Shown: positions 5,539-13,548 of the stretch, piece after piece
How positions within the stretch are numbered: the first letter of the stretch is position 1
Layout of the letters: every line of letters starts with the position of its first letter
NCBI GenBank assembly: GCA_011053005.1
Contig: DRHW01000019.1
Location: 62,001 to 126,000 of the forward strand
Direction of reading: 5' to 3'
DNA: 64,000 nt
From: Methylophaga sp.
GTDB taxonomy: Bacteria; Pseudomonadota; Gammaproteobacteria; Nitrosococcales; Methylophagaceae
Position numbers and translations under genes: made by a program
Notes under the pieces: generated by a model
The model's input: only the letters and a program-made list of their open reading frames with translations
Database searches by the model: none
Told to the model about the DNA's origin: nothing

Positions 5539-6225
5539 TTATAAATTGTCAGAACCACTAAAAGTCAGCGTTTCTTCAGTAAGAATAGCATCGCCTTCTT
5601 GCCAAGTTTTGCCATCAGGAACAATCGTTCTCACTTGATAAATTTCTCCAGGAACCGCTTCAGACATAGTGAAAATATAATATTTACTAGCGTATAAAGG
5701 ATACCGCGAGTTTTTAGGGTCATTGATAAAAGGCTGAATAATATATTGCACTGCTTTTACTTTCTGACCTTGATACTCGATCTCGGTCTCTTTTTTATCT
5801 GCACCTTGGGCTAAAGCCCAGCGTATTTTACGCTGAAAATAACGCCAATCCCCTCCCGTTAATCGCTTCAATTCATGTACATCAAATTCAAGAAAGAAAA
5901 CAAATACACTGTTTCCTTGCTGATTTTCTCTATCTTGATATGGACGCTTATTCTCGCCAGTAAAAAACTCAAAATGAGTATCTTTACGTCCAGTGTTACG
6001 TACATTACTGACCACAACATCTACCGTGTCTTCACGAGGGCCATCAACAAAACTAGTTCGTTTGTATTTGTAATGCAAAACGGTCGGTTGTGTAATATTT
6101 TTTAAATGTGCTTTATCAAACAGCTCATTATTAATATCAGAATATCCTGCTACGGCAAATGCATTGACGGTAAAACCCATCAATAAGCAGATCGAAATCA
6201 CCGAAAACCATATTTTTTGTATCAT
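5539..6225 (-). CDS. secreted protein of unknown function
   Basis: Not recognised. The 228-residue product has a clear signal peptide (MIQKIW, hydrophobic core, AFA cleavage site) and no further membrane segment, so it should be periplasmic. The mature part is rich in beta-type, aromatic and charged residues; notable stretches are TVLHYKYKRTSFVDGPRE, SVFVFFLEFDVHELKRL and GGDWRYFQRKIRWAL. It has no cysteine in the predicted mature chain, arguing against heme or disulfides. ATG at 6225 is chosen over GTG at 6228 because AGGA lies five bases ahead of it. It is divergent from a DUF302 lipoprotein gene and sits between the two-component pair and the xox genes, which hints at a role around methanol oxidation; that is inference. 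Confidence 0.75.
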   Translation of the reverse strand: MIQKIWFSVISICLLMGFTVNAFAVAGYSDINNELFDKAHLKNITQPTVLHYKYKRTSFVDGPREDTVDVVVSNVRNTGRKDTHFEFFTGENKRPYQDRENQQGNSVFVFFLEFDVHELKRLTGGDWRYFQRKIRWALAQGADKKETEIEYQGQKVKAVQYIIQPFINDPKNSRYPLYASKYYIFTMSEAVPGEIYQVRTIVPDGKTWQEGDAILTEETLTFSGSDNL

Positions 6226-6286
6226 CACATTCCTCTTTCATTTTAATGTTATTCTTAACGTTGTATCCATTTTACAGTAAAGTTTA

Positions 6287-6754
6287 ATGATGAATATCAA
6301 ACGATTTGTAACGCTTCCTATTTTATGCACATTAGCAATTATTACTATAACTGGTTGCTCAAAAAATAATGGGGTTAATGTATATCAACAGGTGAGTGAG
6401 TATAATTTCGAAGAGACATTATTGAATCTTGATATCGCTATCTCAGAATACAATTATCGAATCATTCATCGCAGTCAAATTGGTCAAGCTATACGAGATC
6501 GTGGTGAAAAAAACTTTCCCTTGTCCACCATCACTAATTTTTGCAATATTACTTACGCTAAAGAGATGATGGAAATCAATTCCGATCTCATTAACGAAAT
6601 GCCATGCACTATCGCAGTTAGAGAAGAAACCGTGCAAGGCATTATTGTAAGCACCAGATTGATGAATGAACACACTGCAAATGAAAAACAAAATCAATTT
6701 GCAGTCAAAATCAATAATAATCTTAAATCAATTATCGCAGCCACCGTTGAATAA
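6287..6754 (+). CDS. DUF302-family lipoprotein
   Basis: Small probable lipoprotein (155 residues) with a signal sequence ending in ITGC, lipidated cysteine C24. The mature part resembles the DUF302 family: SEYNFEETLLNLDIAI, then NYRIIHRSQIG, then FCNITYAKEMMEINSDL with MPCTIAV close behind, the conserved cysteine-containing core of that family. DUF302 function is not established; members are often found near sulfur or redox proteins. It has its own divergent promoter region of about 60 bp shared with the secreted protein gene, and converges on xoxJG with a 24-bp gap. The ribosome site is weak and ATG at 6290 is an alternative start. Confidence 0.8.
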   Translation: MMNIKRFVTLPILCTLAIITITGCSKNNGVNVYQQVSEYNFEETLLNLDIAISEYNYRIIHRSQIGQAIRDRGEKNFPLSTITNFCNITYAKEMMEINSDLINEMPCTIAVREETVQGIIVSTRLMNEHTANEKQNQFAVKINNNLKSIIAATVE

Positions 6755-6778: not shown

Positions 6779-8029
6779 TTATTTTTTGATTTGTTCCGGA
6801 GCATCTTCACCTAAAGCACCGTCTGAACGTGCTTTTAAATAAGCGTACAGATCACTAATATGTGGACGGATATTCGGTTCATCAGACCATGTTGGCATTT
6901 TAAATTCTGCAGCGGCTTTTTCACCAGCAACTTCATTCAAGAAATTTTGACGACGTGCAGGATCATCCAAATTCACCTTGCCAAAGTAACGATGTAACAT
7001 CGTTTTTCTAAATTTAAACTCACTTACACCTTCAAGACGCGTTAATAAATTTGGCGCGATATCTGTTCCCGTTGCATTTTGTCCATGACAAACGAAACAG
7101 GTTGAATTAAACAAACGCCAACCTGCGTATGTTTTACTATCAACCTTACCATCTTCAACGGTATAAGCTGCTTTCTTTGTATGAGCAGATGATTTTACAT
7201 TGGCTAATGACGGCATATTATATTTTGCGATAATTGCAGCAATATCATCTTTGCGTTTTTCTAAGATTTTATCGAGCAGATCTCTCCATGCCGTATCCTG
7301 TTGTCGAACGCCCATACCAAAGTTGAACACATAGTGTGAGCCATATTCATTAAGCGGAACGGTAGTCATTGCCACATCTGTTTGAGTGGGATAAAAACCG
7401 GCGATAGGTCCCCATGCAAATGCAACATCAATATCACCCGATGCTAATGCTTCAGTAATGATTCGACCACTATTAACGCGAGCATCACCGGTCATCATTT
7501 GGAAGTATTCAATCTGATCTTCAAGTCCATCTTTAATCAAAAACTCTGTCGCTAACGCGCGATCAAATAAGCCAATTTTAAGTTTTTTACCTTGTGCTTT
7601 TAATTTAGCAATATCAGCAATTTCATGTAATTCATAGCCTTCACCTTTACGATAAACCATTGAATCTATCGAGCTAAAATAAGGTTTTGTCGGTAAATAC
7701 ATGCCACGTTCTGCAGGAATACTCATCGCAACATCACATAGAAACTTGCCAGTTTCAGGGTCTACTTTTTTAATTGTATTTCGGCTAAACCCTATTCGCT
7801 GTGGAAACCAATAATATTCTACTGGCAAGCCTAGTTCTTCACCCACGATAGCGGCAATTTTATTATCAAACCCTTCTAATTCTTTATTCGAATAGGGTAA
7901 GTTAAATGCGTCAGCACAGACGCGTACTGCAGTTTGTCCCGGCAAAGGTTCAAAGTCAGCTGCTTGGGCCATCGTAATCGAGCTGATTAGACCTACAAAG
8001 AGGTATGAGAATACCCTAGTTATTGTCAT
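6779..8029 (-). CDS. XoxJ-like binding protein fused to cytochrome c (XoxJ-XoxG fusion)
   Basis: A single 416-residue exported polypeptide joins two parts that are normally separate. Residues 1-23 are a signal peptide (cleavage after AQA). About 30-275 is the periplasmic substrate-binding-protein fold of the quinoprotein-associated MxaJ/XoxJ family, with VCADAFNLPYSN and a second conserved Cys in FLCDVAM (C38, C98; likely disulfide). About 295-400 is a class I cytochrome c with CFVCH at 311-315 and FKMPTW supplying a likely distal ligand M378. The frame extends to 8071, but AGGAA sits seven bases before the ATG at 8029 and the signal peptide starts there. It lies downstream of xoxF on the same strand behind a terminator. 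XoxG accepts electrons from XoxF and XoxJ is thought to help activate it; here one protein may do both. Confidence 0.9.
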   Translation of the reverse strand: MTITRVFSYLFVGLISSITMAQAADFEPLPGQTAVRVCADAFNLPYSNKELEGFDNKIAAIVGEELGLPVEYYWFPQRIGFSRNTIKKVDPETGKFLCDVAMSIPAERGMYLPTKPYFSSIDSMVYRKGEGYELHEIADIAKLKAQGKKLKIGLFDRALATEFLIKDGLEDQIEYFQMMTGDARVNSGRIITEALASGDIDVAFAWGPIAGFYPTQTDVAMTTVPLNEYGSHYVFNFGMGVRQQDTAWRDLLDKILEKRKDDIAAIIAKYNMPSLANVKSSAHTKKAAYTVEDGKVDSKTYAGWRLFNSTCFVCHGQNATGTDIAPNLLTRLEGVSEFKFRKTMLHRYFGKVNLDDPARRQNFLNEVAGEKAAAEFKMPTWSDEPNIRPHISDLYAYLKARSDGALGEDAPEQIKK

Positions 8030-8146: not shown

Positions 8147-8177
8147 TAAAAAAAAGCCCGACACAAGTGCCGGGCTT
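8147..8177 (-). terminator. terminator between xoxF and xoxJG
   Basis: Read on the minus strand, AAGCCCGGCACTTGTGTCGGGCTT is followed by a run of T. It should end most xoxF transcripts before xoxJG, allowing unequal expression or a separate promoter. Confidence 0.9.
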
Positions 8178-8222
8178 CTTTATTAAGATTTATCTATTAA
8201 AAAAGATTAATAAATAAAGGTC

Positions 8223-10001
8223 TTATAGGCTAAATACGCTTAAAACACCGCCTAAGTTAGTCCAGCTAGATAGCGCTTTGTAAGCACCTACCGCACCAAG
8301 ACCATCTGTTGAGTTTTCTAAGCTAGGGATCGCCATACCGATACCAGCCCAACCACCGACACCAGACAAGATTGAGATGAACTGTTTGCCATCATGCTTG
8401 TAAGTATTTACGTTACCGATAATACCTGATGCAGTTTTGAATCTCCAAAGCTCACGACCTGAGTTTCCATCTACCGCTTTGATATACCCTTCTAATGTGC
8501 CGTAGAACACGACATCAGTAGCAGTTGCTAAAGCACCAGACCATGCAGAGAAACGTTCTGGGTTAGACCATACGATCTTACCTACACGTGCATCCCAAGC
8601 AATGAAGTTACCTAAGTGTGTGCCACCTGGAGCTGGGTACATGTTCAATGTCGCACCAACATAAGGTTGACCTGATGTGTATTCAACTTCAAACGGTTCA
8701 TAATCCATACATACGTGGTTTGTTGGAACATAGTACAAACCGGTACGTGGAGAATAAGCCGCAGGTTGTTGATCTTTAGAACCTAATGCAGCAGGACAAA
8801 TACCGGTTGTGTTTACATCTTCACCGTTACGTGCTGTTGAGTATTTAGCCACACGATCATGTAGACCTGTTTTAAGATCAACGCCGTTAGACCAGTTTAC
8901 TGCTGGATCAAATTTTTGAGCGACTAACAATTCACCACTAACACGGTCCATTGTGTAACCAAAACCGTTACGATCGAAATGCACTAATGTTTTACGCATT
9001 TTGCCGTTTACTTTTTGCTCAGCAAGAATGTTTTCATTGATACCATCATAATCCCATTCATCAAATGGTGTCATTTGGTAAACCCATTTCGCCATACCGG
9101 TGTCTAAATCACGACCAAATAAAGACATTGACCATTTGTTATCACCAGGACGTTGTGCAGGGTTCCATGTAGATGGGTTACCTGAACCGTAGTAGAACAT
9201 GTTCAAATCAGGATCGTAAGAATACCAACCCCATGTTGTACCACCACCAATTTTCCATTGGTCGCCTTTCCAAGATTTCAAAGAAGAATCTTTACCAACT
9301 GGTTTAAGCATAGACATTGTTTTTTCTGGATCGAAACCCATTTCAGCATCAGGACCTGTGCTGTAAACTTGCCATTTTTCTTTACCCGCTAAGTCATACG
9401 CTTTGATGTAACCACGTACGCCGAACTCACCACCCGAAATACCAACTAAAATTTTATCTTTAAATACGTGTGCTGCAGCAGTACTTGTTGCACCTGTTTT
9501 AGCATCATCACGTTTGTGAGACCATACAACAGCACCACTCTTCATGTCTAAAGCGACTAATGTCGTATCTGCTTGGTTCAAAAAGATTTTACCGTCACCG
9601 TATGCTAGACCACGGTTAACCGTGTCACAACACATAACTGGCACAGTTTCATCGTAGTTTTGTTTTGGTTCATATTTCCATTTGATCGCGCCGTCATTGT
9701 TTAAGTCAAGAGCAAACACGATGTTAGGAAAGGCAGTATGTACATACATAGTACCGTCGATAACTAATGCGTTACCTTCGTGACCACGTAAAACACCTGT
9801 TGAAAATGTCCAAGCCATTTTCAAATCTTTAACGTTATCTTTGTTGATTTGAGTCAGTTCGCTGTAACGTTGGTTGTTATAGTTACCTGCAGCAGATACC
9901 CAGTTGTCTGCATTTTTTTGCATATCTAGGATTTCATCAGCATTAGCTACGCCAGTAGCGGCTAATGCCATCATTGCGATTGATAATGTTTTCAGCTTCA
10001 T
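8223..10001 (-). CDS. xoxF: lanthanide-dependent PQQ methanol dehydrogenase XoxF
   Basis: Periplasmic quinoprotein that oxidises methanol and passes electrons to a cytochrome c. The 592-residue product has a signal peptide (cleavage after ANA, residue 21), the eight-bladed propeller with tryptophan-docking repeats, the vicinal disulfide CC at 124-125 that stacks on PQQ, and DEWDYDGIN with catalytic D317 and the extra D319 that marks lanthanide enzymes (calcium MxaF has Ala there). E192 and N275 occupy the other metal-ligand positions. By motif it fits the XoxF5 type best. AGAGGAAA precedes the ATG at good spacing. No mxaF, mxaI or pqq genes are in this window. The 305-bp upstream region carries two dyad elements. 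Confidence 0.97.
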
Positions 10002-11713: not shown

Positions 11714-11797
11714 GTATTAATCTCTCAAACTGGAATATGATTTCAAATATCGGTTATTGTACCAGCAAGTACTCTCTATATATGGTTGTTGATTACG

Positions 11798-12727
11798 ATG
11801 AAAACTCTTTCAAATATTCTAGGTTTATGCGCTTTTGTCTTTTTAAGCGTTGGCTGTGCTGACGAGCATTATTCTGTCTCGGAAGTCACCACCGGTATTT
11901 TTTATCATCAAGGTGTTGATGAAGATGCAACAGAAAGCAATATCGGTGCAATTGCTAATGTGGGCTTTATCATCGGTGAAAAATGTGTCGCCGTAATTGA
12001 TAGTGGCGGGAGTTATCTTGAGGGCAGGTATTTACGCCGTGAAATCAAAAGTCATACTGATTTACCTATTTGTTATGTGATCAATACGCATGTTCACCCC
12101 GATCATATTCTAGGTAATGCCGCGTTTAAAGAAGATGCTCCTGAGTTCATAGGTCATGAAAAACTACCTGCGGCCATCGCCGCTCGACAAAGTTATTTTG
12201 CTAAAACATTTCAGCAAATATTAGGCAAAGCTTATGTCGGCACAGAATTTATCGATCCATCACTGACCGTTTCCGTTGGTGAACCCATCACCATCGATCT
12301 TGGGAATAGAGTGTTAACGCTTACCGCCTATTCAACCTCTCACACTGACAATGATTTAACCGTATTGGATAACACAACAAAAACCTTATGGACTGGCGAC
12401 TTGCTATTTATAAAACGCATTCCAGCCCTCGATGGCAGTATTAATGGCTGGCTTAAAACTATGCACCAACTACAAACCATGGATCTTAACTTTGTCATTC
12501 CTGGTCATGGCAAAGCAGGAAGCAAGCAATGGCAACAAGGTTTGATTGATCAAATAAGATACTTTACGGTATTGCGAACTGAGATTCGAAAAATCATCGA
12601 TAATATGGGTACGATTGATGAAGCAACGGAAACAGTAGGACTTGAAGAAGCTAAAAACTGGGAACTTTTCCCGTTATACCATCGTCGTAACATCACTGCC
12701 TCATTCGTTGAACTTGAATGGGAATAA
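11798..12727 (+). CDS. quinoprotein-relay-type metallo-beta-lactamase-fold hydrolase
   Basis: Exported MBL-fold protein of 309 residues. The zinc site is intact: THVHPDH gives H98, H100, D102 and H103, with further ligands expected in STSHTDND, TGDLLF and IPGHGKAG. The N-terminus has a signal sequence with a possible, non-ideal lipobox (FLSVGC, C20). It resembles the SoxH-like zinc metallohydrolases that travel with PQQ dehydrogenases and SoxYZ-like carriers (the 'quinoprotein relay system' families); substrate unknown. The frame opens at TTG 11786, but ATG 11798 begins the signal peptide and is preferred. The next gene starts 23 bases after the stop, so the two form an operon. Confidence 0.85.
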   Translation: MKTLSNILGLCAFVFLSVGCADEHYSVSEVTTGIFYHQGVDEDATESNIGAIANVGFIIGEKCVAVIDSGGSYLEGRYLRREIKSHTDLPICYVINTHVHPDHILGNAAFKEDAPEFIGHEKLPAAIAARQSYFAKTFQQILGKAYVGTEFIDPSLTVSVGEPITIDLGNRVLTLTAYSTSHTDNDLTVLDNTTKTLWTGDLLFIKRIPALDGSINGWLKTMHQLQTMDLNFVIPGHGKAGSKQWQQGLIDQIRYFTVLRTEIRKIIDNMGTIDEATETVGLEEAKNWELFPLYHRRNITASFVELEWE

Positions 12728-12750
12728 TAATAAAAAACCGGAGAGAAACC

Positions 12751-13548
12751 ATGTTTAGTCGAATATTTAACCTTCTTTTCATCAGTTTGGGTCTGATGTC
12801 TTTTGGGATGACCAGTTATGCTGCCACACCGACCGAACCATTATGGCCAACATTAAAAATAGCTTATTTTGGTGATAAAGTAATTGAAGAAGATGCTAAT
12901 GATCTATTGGTCATCGAAGCACCTAAACGTGCAGAAGATGCTGCAATCGTCCCCATTACAGTCAAATCGCTGGTCCCTCAATCTGCCGATAAATACATTA
13001 AAAATATTCACATTGTAATAGACAATAATCCTGAACCTTACTCGGCTAACTTTCACCTTTCACCAGAATTAGGTCTGATTGATATTTCTACACGTATGCG
13101 AGTTGATCAATACACGTTTGTACGTGCAATTGCTGAAATGAATGATGGTTCGTTACATATGGTATCTCGCTTTGTTAAAGCATCAGGCGGTTGTAGTGCG
13201 CCAGCCGGTAAAGATGCGGCAGCGGCTTTAGCTCGTTTAGGTAAGATGCAAATTCGGATGCGTACACCGACAATTGGTGAGTCTGTCCAAGCACAAGTCA
13301 TCATTAGTCACCCAAATTATAATGGCTTACAATTTGACCAAGCTAGTCGCCGATATATTCCTGCACATTATGTGAAAAAAATTAACATTACATATAATGA
13401 GAAACCTATCATTTCCGTTGATGCGGGCATCTCTATTAGTGAAGATCCAAGCGTGAGGTTTACTTTCACCCCCACTGAAAATGGAATCTTAAAAGCTGAT
13501 GTGGTAGATAGTCAAGGTCAGACTTTCAGCCAACAAAAAGAGCTTTAA
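12751..13548 (+). CDS. quinoprotein dehydrogenase-associated SoxYZ-like carrier
   Basis: Exported 265-residue fusion of SoxY- and SoxZ-like domains. After a signal peptide (cleavage near SYA), residues 30-145 form a SoxY-like domain ending in SGGCSAPAG, whose C148 corresponds to the carrier cysteine of SoxY; residues about 165-265 form the SoxZ-like beta domain (KMQIRMRTPTIGESV, ISHPNY, FTPTENG). True SoxY carries the Cys at its very C-terminus, whereas here it lies in the inter-domain linker. GGAGAG before ATG 12751 decides the start over an upstream frame opening. It is co-transcribed with the metallohydrolase. No other sox genes are present, so thiosulfate oxidation is unlikely; the cargo carried for the quinoprotein is unknown. 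Confidence 0.87.
   Translation: MFSRIFNLLFISLGLMSFGMTSYAATPTEPLWPTLKIAYFGDKVIEEDANDLLVIEAPKRAEDAAIVPITVKSLVPQSADKYIKNIHIVIDNNPEPYSANFHLSPELGLIDISTRMRVDQYTFVRAIAEMNDGSLHMVSRFVKASGGCSAPAGKDAAAALARLGKMQIRMRTPTIGESVQAQVIISHPNYNGLQFDQASRRYIPAHYVKKINITYNEKPIISVDAGISISEDPSVRFTFTPTENGILKADVVDSQGQTFSQQKEL

Follow-up and report, generated by a model that had tools for sequence, protein, structure and literature searches.

The stretch of DNA analysed here (the window) comprises 64,000 nucleotides of a Methylophaga sp. genome and contains, on its minus strand, a frame of 416 aa that runs from an ATG at 8029 down to 6779 with no internal stop (Table 1). The plus strand across 6779-8029 is full of stops. 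The preliminary description of the locus reported a single uninterrupted 416-residue frame without giving its strand; we established the minus strand and confirmed that no stop separates the domains. It also described a signal peptide, an XoxJ-type domain with a Cys pair and a cytochrome c domain with a CFVCH haem site and a likely Met ligand, and all of these are present, the signal peptide being judged by eye. By the same judgement, one signal peptide serves the whole chain. The genome carries one copy of the fusion.

The fusion gene lies downstream of a xoxF gene across a gap of 193 bases. The encoded XoxF contains the motif WDYDG, the second Asp of which we take to mark lanthanide-type enzymes. 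Where the fetched stretch of a relative reaches far enough, the order xoxF, J gene or fusion gene, convergent DUF302 gene and 229-aa gene recurs, as recognised by eye. The 229-aa protein had no Pfam or NCBIfam match and is a candidate part of xox clusters; in Massilia, a protein that by eye is similar to it in sequence follows xoxJ. Also close to xoxF in the window, at 11786-13548 on the plus strand, are a quinoprotein relay hydrolase (TIGR04559) and a quinoprotein-associated SoxYZ-like carrier (TIGR04557).

Table 1. Features of the fusion locus and of related genes elsewhere. Positions are those of the window unless preceded by a locus name.
Feature	Position	Strand	Basis or remark
Fusion gene, XoxJ domain + linker + cytochrome c, 416 aa	6779..8029	minus	open frame; family matches; stop codon included
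Signal peptide, about residues 1-24	7958..8029	minus	judged by eye; helix 3-19 in the model; exact cut approximate
XoxJ domain (periplasmic-binding-protein-like), residues 25-275	7205..7957	minus	TIGR03871; model; invariant Cys38 and Cys98
Linker, residues 276-296 (about 21 aa)	7142..7204	minus	between matched domains; faster-evolving
Cytochrome c domain, residues 297-416, long loop from haem His to Met	6782..7141	minus	TIGR03874 below cut-off; XoxG 6onq; loop and clade
Haem site CFVCH, residues 311-315	7085..7099	minus	both Cys and His invariant in 15/15 fusions
Met378, likely axial ligand	6896..6898	minus	invariant in 15/15; putative ligand role
xoxF, 592 aa, with WDYDG	8223..10001	minus	TIGR03075, 715.5 bits; best PDB sequence matches XoxF 6oc5, 6dam
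Intrinsic-terminator-like hairpin in the xoxF/fusion gap	8150..8181	minus	14-pair stem; T-rich stretch after it (coding strand)
Convergent DUF302 protein	6287..6754	plus	neighbour in relatives read, recognised there by eye
229-aa secreted-looking protein	5539..6228	minus	neighbour of xoxF/xoxJ in family relatives read
Further XoxF-type genes of the window's genome	L047:6785-8563, L048:6922-8592, L049:6279-8069	minus	94, 78 and 77% identical to the window XoxF; all WDYDG
Stand-alone long-loop cytochromes c	L164:7060-7560, L165:7210-7761, L166:7974-8495, L182:1339-1857, L183:1312-1860	plus	kin of the fused domain

The N-terminal domain is of the XoxJ type by family score, by the two-lobed binding-protein fold of the predicted model and by the position of the gene adjoining xoxF. 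Residues 35-275 match TIGR03871 (XoxJ/MoxJ_2) at 212.8 bits, a narrow pass over the cut-off of 212.15, and cover positions 2-232 of the 232 in the profile, indicating a full-length J domain. A search of PDB sequences recovered XoxJ 6onp (E 4e-33, residues 20-277). The structure model was built from 56 sequences (mean pLDDT 83.2) and has its J domain at high confidence; an earlier model from 15 sequences was poor (pLDDT 52.6) and its structure search was left unused. Superposition of the predicted model placed residues 34-276 on XoxJ 6onp (Z 24.6, rmsd 2.0, 208 aligned), residues 34-275 on MxaJ 5sv6 (Z 24.3, rmsd 2.4, 230 aligned) and residues 33-276 on the MxaJ of 9ISM, chain B (Z 21.1, rmsd 2.5, 227 aligned). 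The cytochrome of the model falls partly below pLDDT 50, with low confidence around the haem site, and we claim no domain geometry from it. The Cys pair of the XoxJ domain is invariant in 56/56 alignment rows. In the window's genome, rated 99.96% complete, the fusion is the only XoxJ besides MxaJ, which is 28% identical to it and lies in the mxa cluster. MxaJ of the Ca-dependent system (5sv6, 9ISM chain B) thus shares the fold of the fusion's J domain but belongs to TIGR03870 and carries no attached cytochrome. Going by its entry, 9ISM is a solved MxaF/MxaJ complex; a search of the literature for a paper on this complex found none.

Like an XoxG, the C-terminal domain has a c-type haem site and a likely Met ligand, and a signal peptide precedes them in the chain. 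Its residues 287-412 match TIGR03874 (methanol-related cytochrome) at 64.1 bits, well below the cut-off of 161.75; scores for the fused cytochrome range over 64-68 bits, and the Massilia XoxG encoded beside xoxF also falls below the cut-off at 51.5 bits. The PDB sequence search returned XoxG 6onq (E 3e-10, residues 291-412), a match about 18 residues shorter than the fused domain (104 vs 122 residues). The XoxG (6onq) and XoxJ (6onp) of Methylorubrum extorquens AM1 are thus sequence relatives of the two fused domains but, unlike these, were deposited as two separate proteins. The spacing from haem His to Met is 59-63 in the fused cytochromes, 37-46 in XoxG-like rows and 66-71 in five stand-alone relatives, the Met of the conserved MP motif being taken where there were several candidates. 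A tree was built from those columns that have residues in 50% or more of the rows, a filter that should exclude the loop. In it the fused and long-loop cytochromes form one clade (support 98/93) apart from the 36 other rows; the program warned of adjoining long branches, of which two belong to long-loop rows. The fused domain does not group with the XoxG encoded beside xoxF and the stand-alone XoxG-like cytochromes of the family. On sequence grounds, it is separate from the lineage's XoxG-like cytochrome and sits in its own long-loop clade, and its equation with the lineage's XoxG is not supported.

Of the five stand-alone long-loop relatives, three (G335, G402, G180) were found among 369 genomes of the class and two (G655, G774) among 398 genomes of the phylum. 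They resemble the fused domain in the long haem-Met loop and the shared clade and differ from it in being separate genes; the closest found, in G335, is 48% identical over residues 4-130 of 132. No NCBIfam model scored over cut-off in the four of them that were scanned, and the libraries searched gave no dedicated model over cut-off for the clade, which matches general Pfam cytochrome c domains only. None of the five lies beside xoxF or xoxJ in the stretches read, and G335 has an ordinary xoxF-xoxG-xoxJ cluster with its long-loop cytochrome elsewhere. In G774, neither XoxJ nor a PQQ alcohol dehydrogenase was found. These genomes could be read to mean that the fused cytochrome works with some other partner, or shuttles electrons among periplasmic cytochromes, and merely has XoxJ as its carrier, since its relatives are unlinked from xoxF in the stretches read and G774 has such a cytochrome but neither XoxJ nor a PQQ alcohol dehydrogenase. 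Both XoxJ and a PQQ alcohol dehydrogenase are present in 4/5 of the same genomes, however, and the fusion itself adjoins xoxF, so that we consider this reading quite improbable. In the class sample, XoxJ occurs in 36/369 genomes; a cytochrome match at E ≤ 1e-9 occurs in 10/369, all among the 36 with XoxJ (own genome included), and six of the ten matches are short-loop.

The preliminary description made no judgement on how widespread such fusions are and proposed a search for the same two-domain order in other genomes. Our genus survey searched 59 genomes, 29 of them of the window's genus, and found the whole fusion in 15/29 (own included), with 65-83% identity to the window protein. A close stand-alone XoxJ occurs in 3/29 (G013 twice, G017, G020), and neither the fusion nor a close XoxJ at that level in 11/29, some of these genomes being incomplete. 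Other genera of the family have stand-alone XoxJ (53-67%) in 6/7 genomes and none in one. A family-wide search of 57 genomes with the cytochrome domain recovered the fusion from these 15 again. Among named genomes, a scan kept 80 of 204 relatives, of which 13 are fusions, from records titled Methylophaga sp., Piscirickettsiaceae, Gammaproteobacteria or Pseudomonadota MAGs; the survey and the scan largely cover the same genomes, and their counts are not additive. Methylophaga sulfidovorans, aminisulfidivorans and thiooxydans have the stand-alone form, which, in these and other congeners, resembles the fusion in its place beside xoxF and in J identity (about 60-69%) but lacks the cytochrome; its chain terminates in a short tail of mostly acidic residues. 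In Massilia, Methylibium, Herbaspirillum and others, matches spanned most of the query but were rejected as fusions, as the J frames there lack CxxCH; the frames read among them are separate genes in the order xoxF-xoxG-xoxJ. Within the searched genomes, the range of the fusion is one genus of the Methylophagaceae, to which the published Methylacidiphilum fusion is to be added.

Two side observations concern XoxJ more widely. The XoxJ of L089, from a record titled Klebsiella pneumoniae MAG, groups with that of an environmental gammaproteobacterium at 100/100, and the label is probably wrong. Two congeners (L044:2822-4522, plus strand; L045:2119-3774, minus strand) carry a second XoxJ-type domain, this one followed by ankyrin repeats at the C-terminal end of fused proteins of 551-566 aa; the neighbouring genes encode a PQQ alcohol dehydrogenase, a cytochrome c and a YVTN-type protein. 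Seven genomes of the 59-genome survey, two of which were read, gave J matches in frames of 567-584 aa, and long J frames also occur in G127, G362 and G180. XoxJ seems to be a recurrent fusion partner.

Cys38, Cys98, the CxxCH site (311-315) and Met378 are identical in 15/15 fusion proteins. Across eight close pairs, dN/dS was 0.04-0.10 for the J domain, 0.03-0.17 for the cytochrome domain (seven pairs, undefined in the eighth) and 0.04-0.37 for the linker, which exceeds both domains in 6/8; the values are rough, with dS above 1 in several of the pairs. Both domains of the fusion are under purifying selection. An assembly artefact or a decaying gene might be suspected from the J genes without a cytochrome that stand among fusion alleles in the J tree (below). 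Given the presence of the gene in 15/29 genomes of the genus, the invariance of its haem site and Met, and dN/dS values mostly no higher than 0.1 in either domain, an accident of assembly or decay has next to no likelihood.

We traced the history of the fusion with a J-domain tree of 35 rows, from which L080 and the frame-broken L087 were left out. On this tree, the fusions need 5 changes, at least 4 of which are forced by well-supported branches, and an AU test rejects a single fusion clade (p 0.003). Architecture defined the group tested, although a tree of 64/81 rows, which agrees with the 35-row tree, had been inspected before the test. J genes without the cytochrome module are nested among the fusions. 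A single gain of the fusion followed by purely vertical descent of J is thereby rejected. Several independent fusions are disfavoured as well, given that the fused cytochromes form one clade and their linker is alignable. Since a single fusion clade is rejected for J but found for the fused cytochromes, the cytochrome module, as far as the trees tell, probably became joined a single time, with several losses or exchanges afterwards. The sequences fit both a single gain with multiple losses and an exchange of the 3' module among congeners. Most well-supported groups of fused cytochromes match the J tree, but the pair L025/L027 (86/85, 92/90; the same genomes as L060/L063) does not. Three stand-alone J proteins inside the fusion part of the tree have visible ends, and these (L066, L068 and L069) end in KDDDD, ADD and KDND, like relatives outside it. 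These acidic tails, together with the absence of the L025/L027 pair from the J tree, favour exchange of the 3' module.

The window's genome also encodes two stand-alone XoxG-like cytochromes away from xoxF, of 259 aa on contig C5 and 167 aa on contig C44. At least one further XoxG-like cytochrome match in a separate frame was found in 15/15 fusion genomes, the matches being mostly weak and local at E ≤ 1e-4. As described for Methylomonas XoxG4 (PMC5874918), the gene for a gammaproteobacterial XoxG can be located away from xoxF, and the same is true of the stand-alone cytochromes here. Because such cytochromes accompany every fusion, the fused cytochrome may be dispensable. A separate, complete xoxG that alone serves XoxF had been named beforehand as speaking against the fusion's proposed role; stand-alone XoxG-like genes do exist, which goes half of the way towards that finding, and one or more of them may serve XoxF.

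The gap between xoxF and the fusion gene contains an intrinsic-terminator-like hairpin. Terminator-like sites number 5 in 3.7 kb vs 2.5 ± 1.3 in shuffles, and none of the others approaches the hairpin at 8150-8181 in length. The intergenic RNA is also much more stably folded than its shuffles (z -5.4), and 13/15 loci gave a similar hairpin in a simple search, comprising 8/9 fused (not L015) and 5/6 non-fused (not L037). Between this terminator and the fusion gene, no sigma-70-like site was detected. For its one fusion, the genome has four XoxF-type genes and one MxaF; beside the other three XoxF-type genes, one of which (C37) lies at a contig end, no J or cytochrome gene was recognised among the listed ORFs. 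Because of the terminator between the genes and the four XoxF-type genes per fusion, XoxF is probably in excess over the fusion, and a 1:1 stoichiometry of the two appears unlikely on these sequence features. The ratio suggested earlier would hold for J to cytochrome but hardly for XoxF to fusion. Taken whole, the earlier picture was of the lineage's own XoxG joined to XoxJ, as the sole acceptor of XoxF and at a constant ratio to it. The gene does adjoin xoxF, its haem site and Met are intact and the genome has no other XoxJ. Against this stand the different cytochrome clade, the two stand-alone XoxG-like cytochromes, the terminator and the four xoxF-type genes, and we judge that picture clearly unlikely.

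Fusions of this general kind have been described previously. As far as the accessible parts of the papers go, Methylacidiphilum strains SolV, Kam1 and V4 have cytochrome cGJ (XoxGJ, xoxG:J) fusions (PMC8498564, PMC6688271, PMC8170126, PMC5623727); the SolV protein was purified (PMC8779874) and named cytochrome cGJ (PMC8546591), XoxG:J was described as the electron partner of XoxF (PMC8498564), and the J part is truncated with a separate xoxJ present (PMC6688271, PMC8498564). Going by these descriptions, cGJ resembles the window's fusion in joining an XoxG-type cytochrome and an XoxJ part in one chain within a xoxF cluster, whereas the window's fusion covers the whole J profile, has no separate XoxJ that we found and belongs to another phylum. 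In the literature searched, which included few subscription journals, we found no report of an XoxJ-cytochrome fusion in the Methylophagaceae. An XoxG:J fusion as such is already known; the one in the window carries a cytochrome different from the lineage's XoxG-like one.

All of the above supports a secreted chain, encoded next to xoxF, that combines a domain of the XoxJ family with a c-type cytochrome. As to its role, the reading that we prefer, and to which we would give an even chance, is that of an XoxF-docking protein with its own tethered electron acceptor, accessory to the soluble XoxG-like cytochromes. The N-terminal XoxJ domain would dock on XoxF as MxaJ may do on MxaF, judging from homology and the title of entry 9ISM, and the linker of about 21 residues would carry the His/Met mono-haem cytochrome c to the docked XoxF. 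The tethered haem would take electrons from the XoxF held by J and then pass them to soluble cytochromes. The fusion would be made below the level of XoxF, would be common to the four XoxF copies and would not replace the stand-alone cytochromes. Because an MxaF/MxaJ complex has been solved, going by the entry for 9ISM, tethering an acceptor to the protein that binds the dehydrogenase is plausible; this much of the original proposal stands, though not with the lineage's XoxG as the acceptor.

For the tethered acceptor we count the XoxJ identity by family, sequence and model, the invariant haem site and Met, purifying selection, the place beside xoxF in relatives whose contigs reach, the status as sole XoxJ besides MxaJ, the 10/10 class genomes in which a cytochrome match at E ≤ 1e-9 goes with XoxJ, and, from the parts of the paper available, the precedent of Methylacidiphilum XoxG:J as the electron partner of XoxF (PMC8498564). 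Against it we count the stand-alone XoxG-like cytochromes in 15/15 fusion genomes, the J genes without cytochrome nested among the fusions, the long-loop relatives away from xoxF in the stretches read, and G774 with its lack of XoxJ and PQQ alcohol dehydrogenase.

Some of these facts would also suit a redox-active maturase, the main rival to an accessory acceptor. The long-loop cytochrome would do its work during the time that immature XoxF is held by XoxJ: at activation it would set the redox state of PQQ or of the Cys-Cys ring, and its part in steady turnover would be small. XoxJ and MxaJ have been proposed, in the portions of the papers at hand, to help in cofactor insertion or activation (PMC8170126, PMC12997753), and the MxaF/MxaJ complex listed as 9ISM is compatible with such contact. 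The terminator, which suggests that the fusion is made below XoxF, and the XoxG-like cytochromes kept for turnover also argue for a role in maturation. Non-fused congeners, however, manage without the cytochrome. To our knowledge, no redox step is known in XoxF activation, which further counts against this alternative, and we rate it as possible though unlikely. If it were true, a genus in which the module has repeatedly been lost or exchanged would offer natural pairs with and without it.

Whether accessory acceptor or maturase, the fusion bears on the debated role of MxaJ and XoxJ, seen in the parts of the papers available either as activation helpers (PMC8170126, PMC12997753) or, in a proposal for MxaJ of the marine Methylophaga aminisulfidivorans, as an adapter between dehydrogenase and cytochrome (PMC9728263). 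Here a natural XoxJ-cytochrome chain, under selection and in the same family as M. aminisulfidivorans, ties both partners together, and it points to a long-loop clade of cytochromes c. The question of the XoxJ role is made testable by close relatives, some of which have the cytochrome and some of which lack it.
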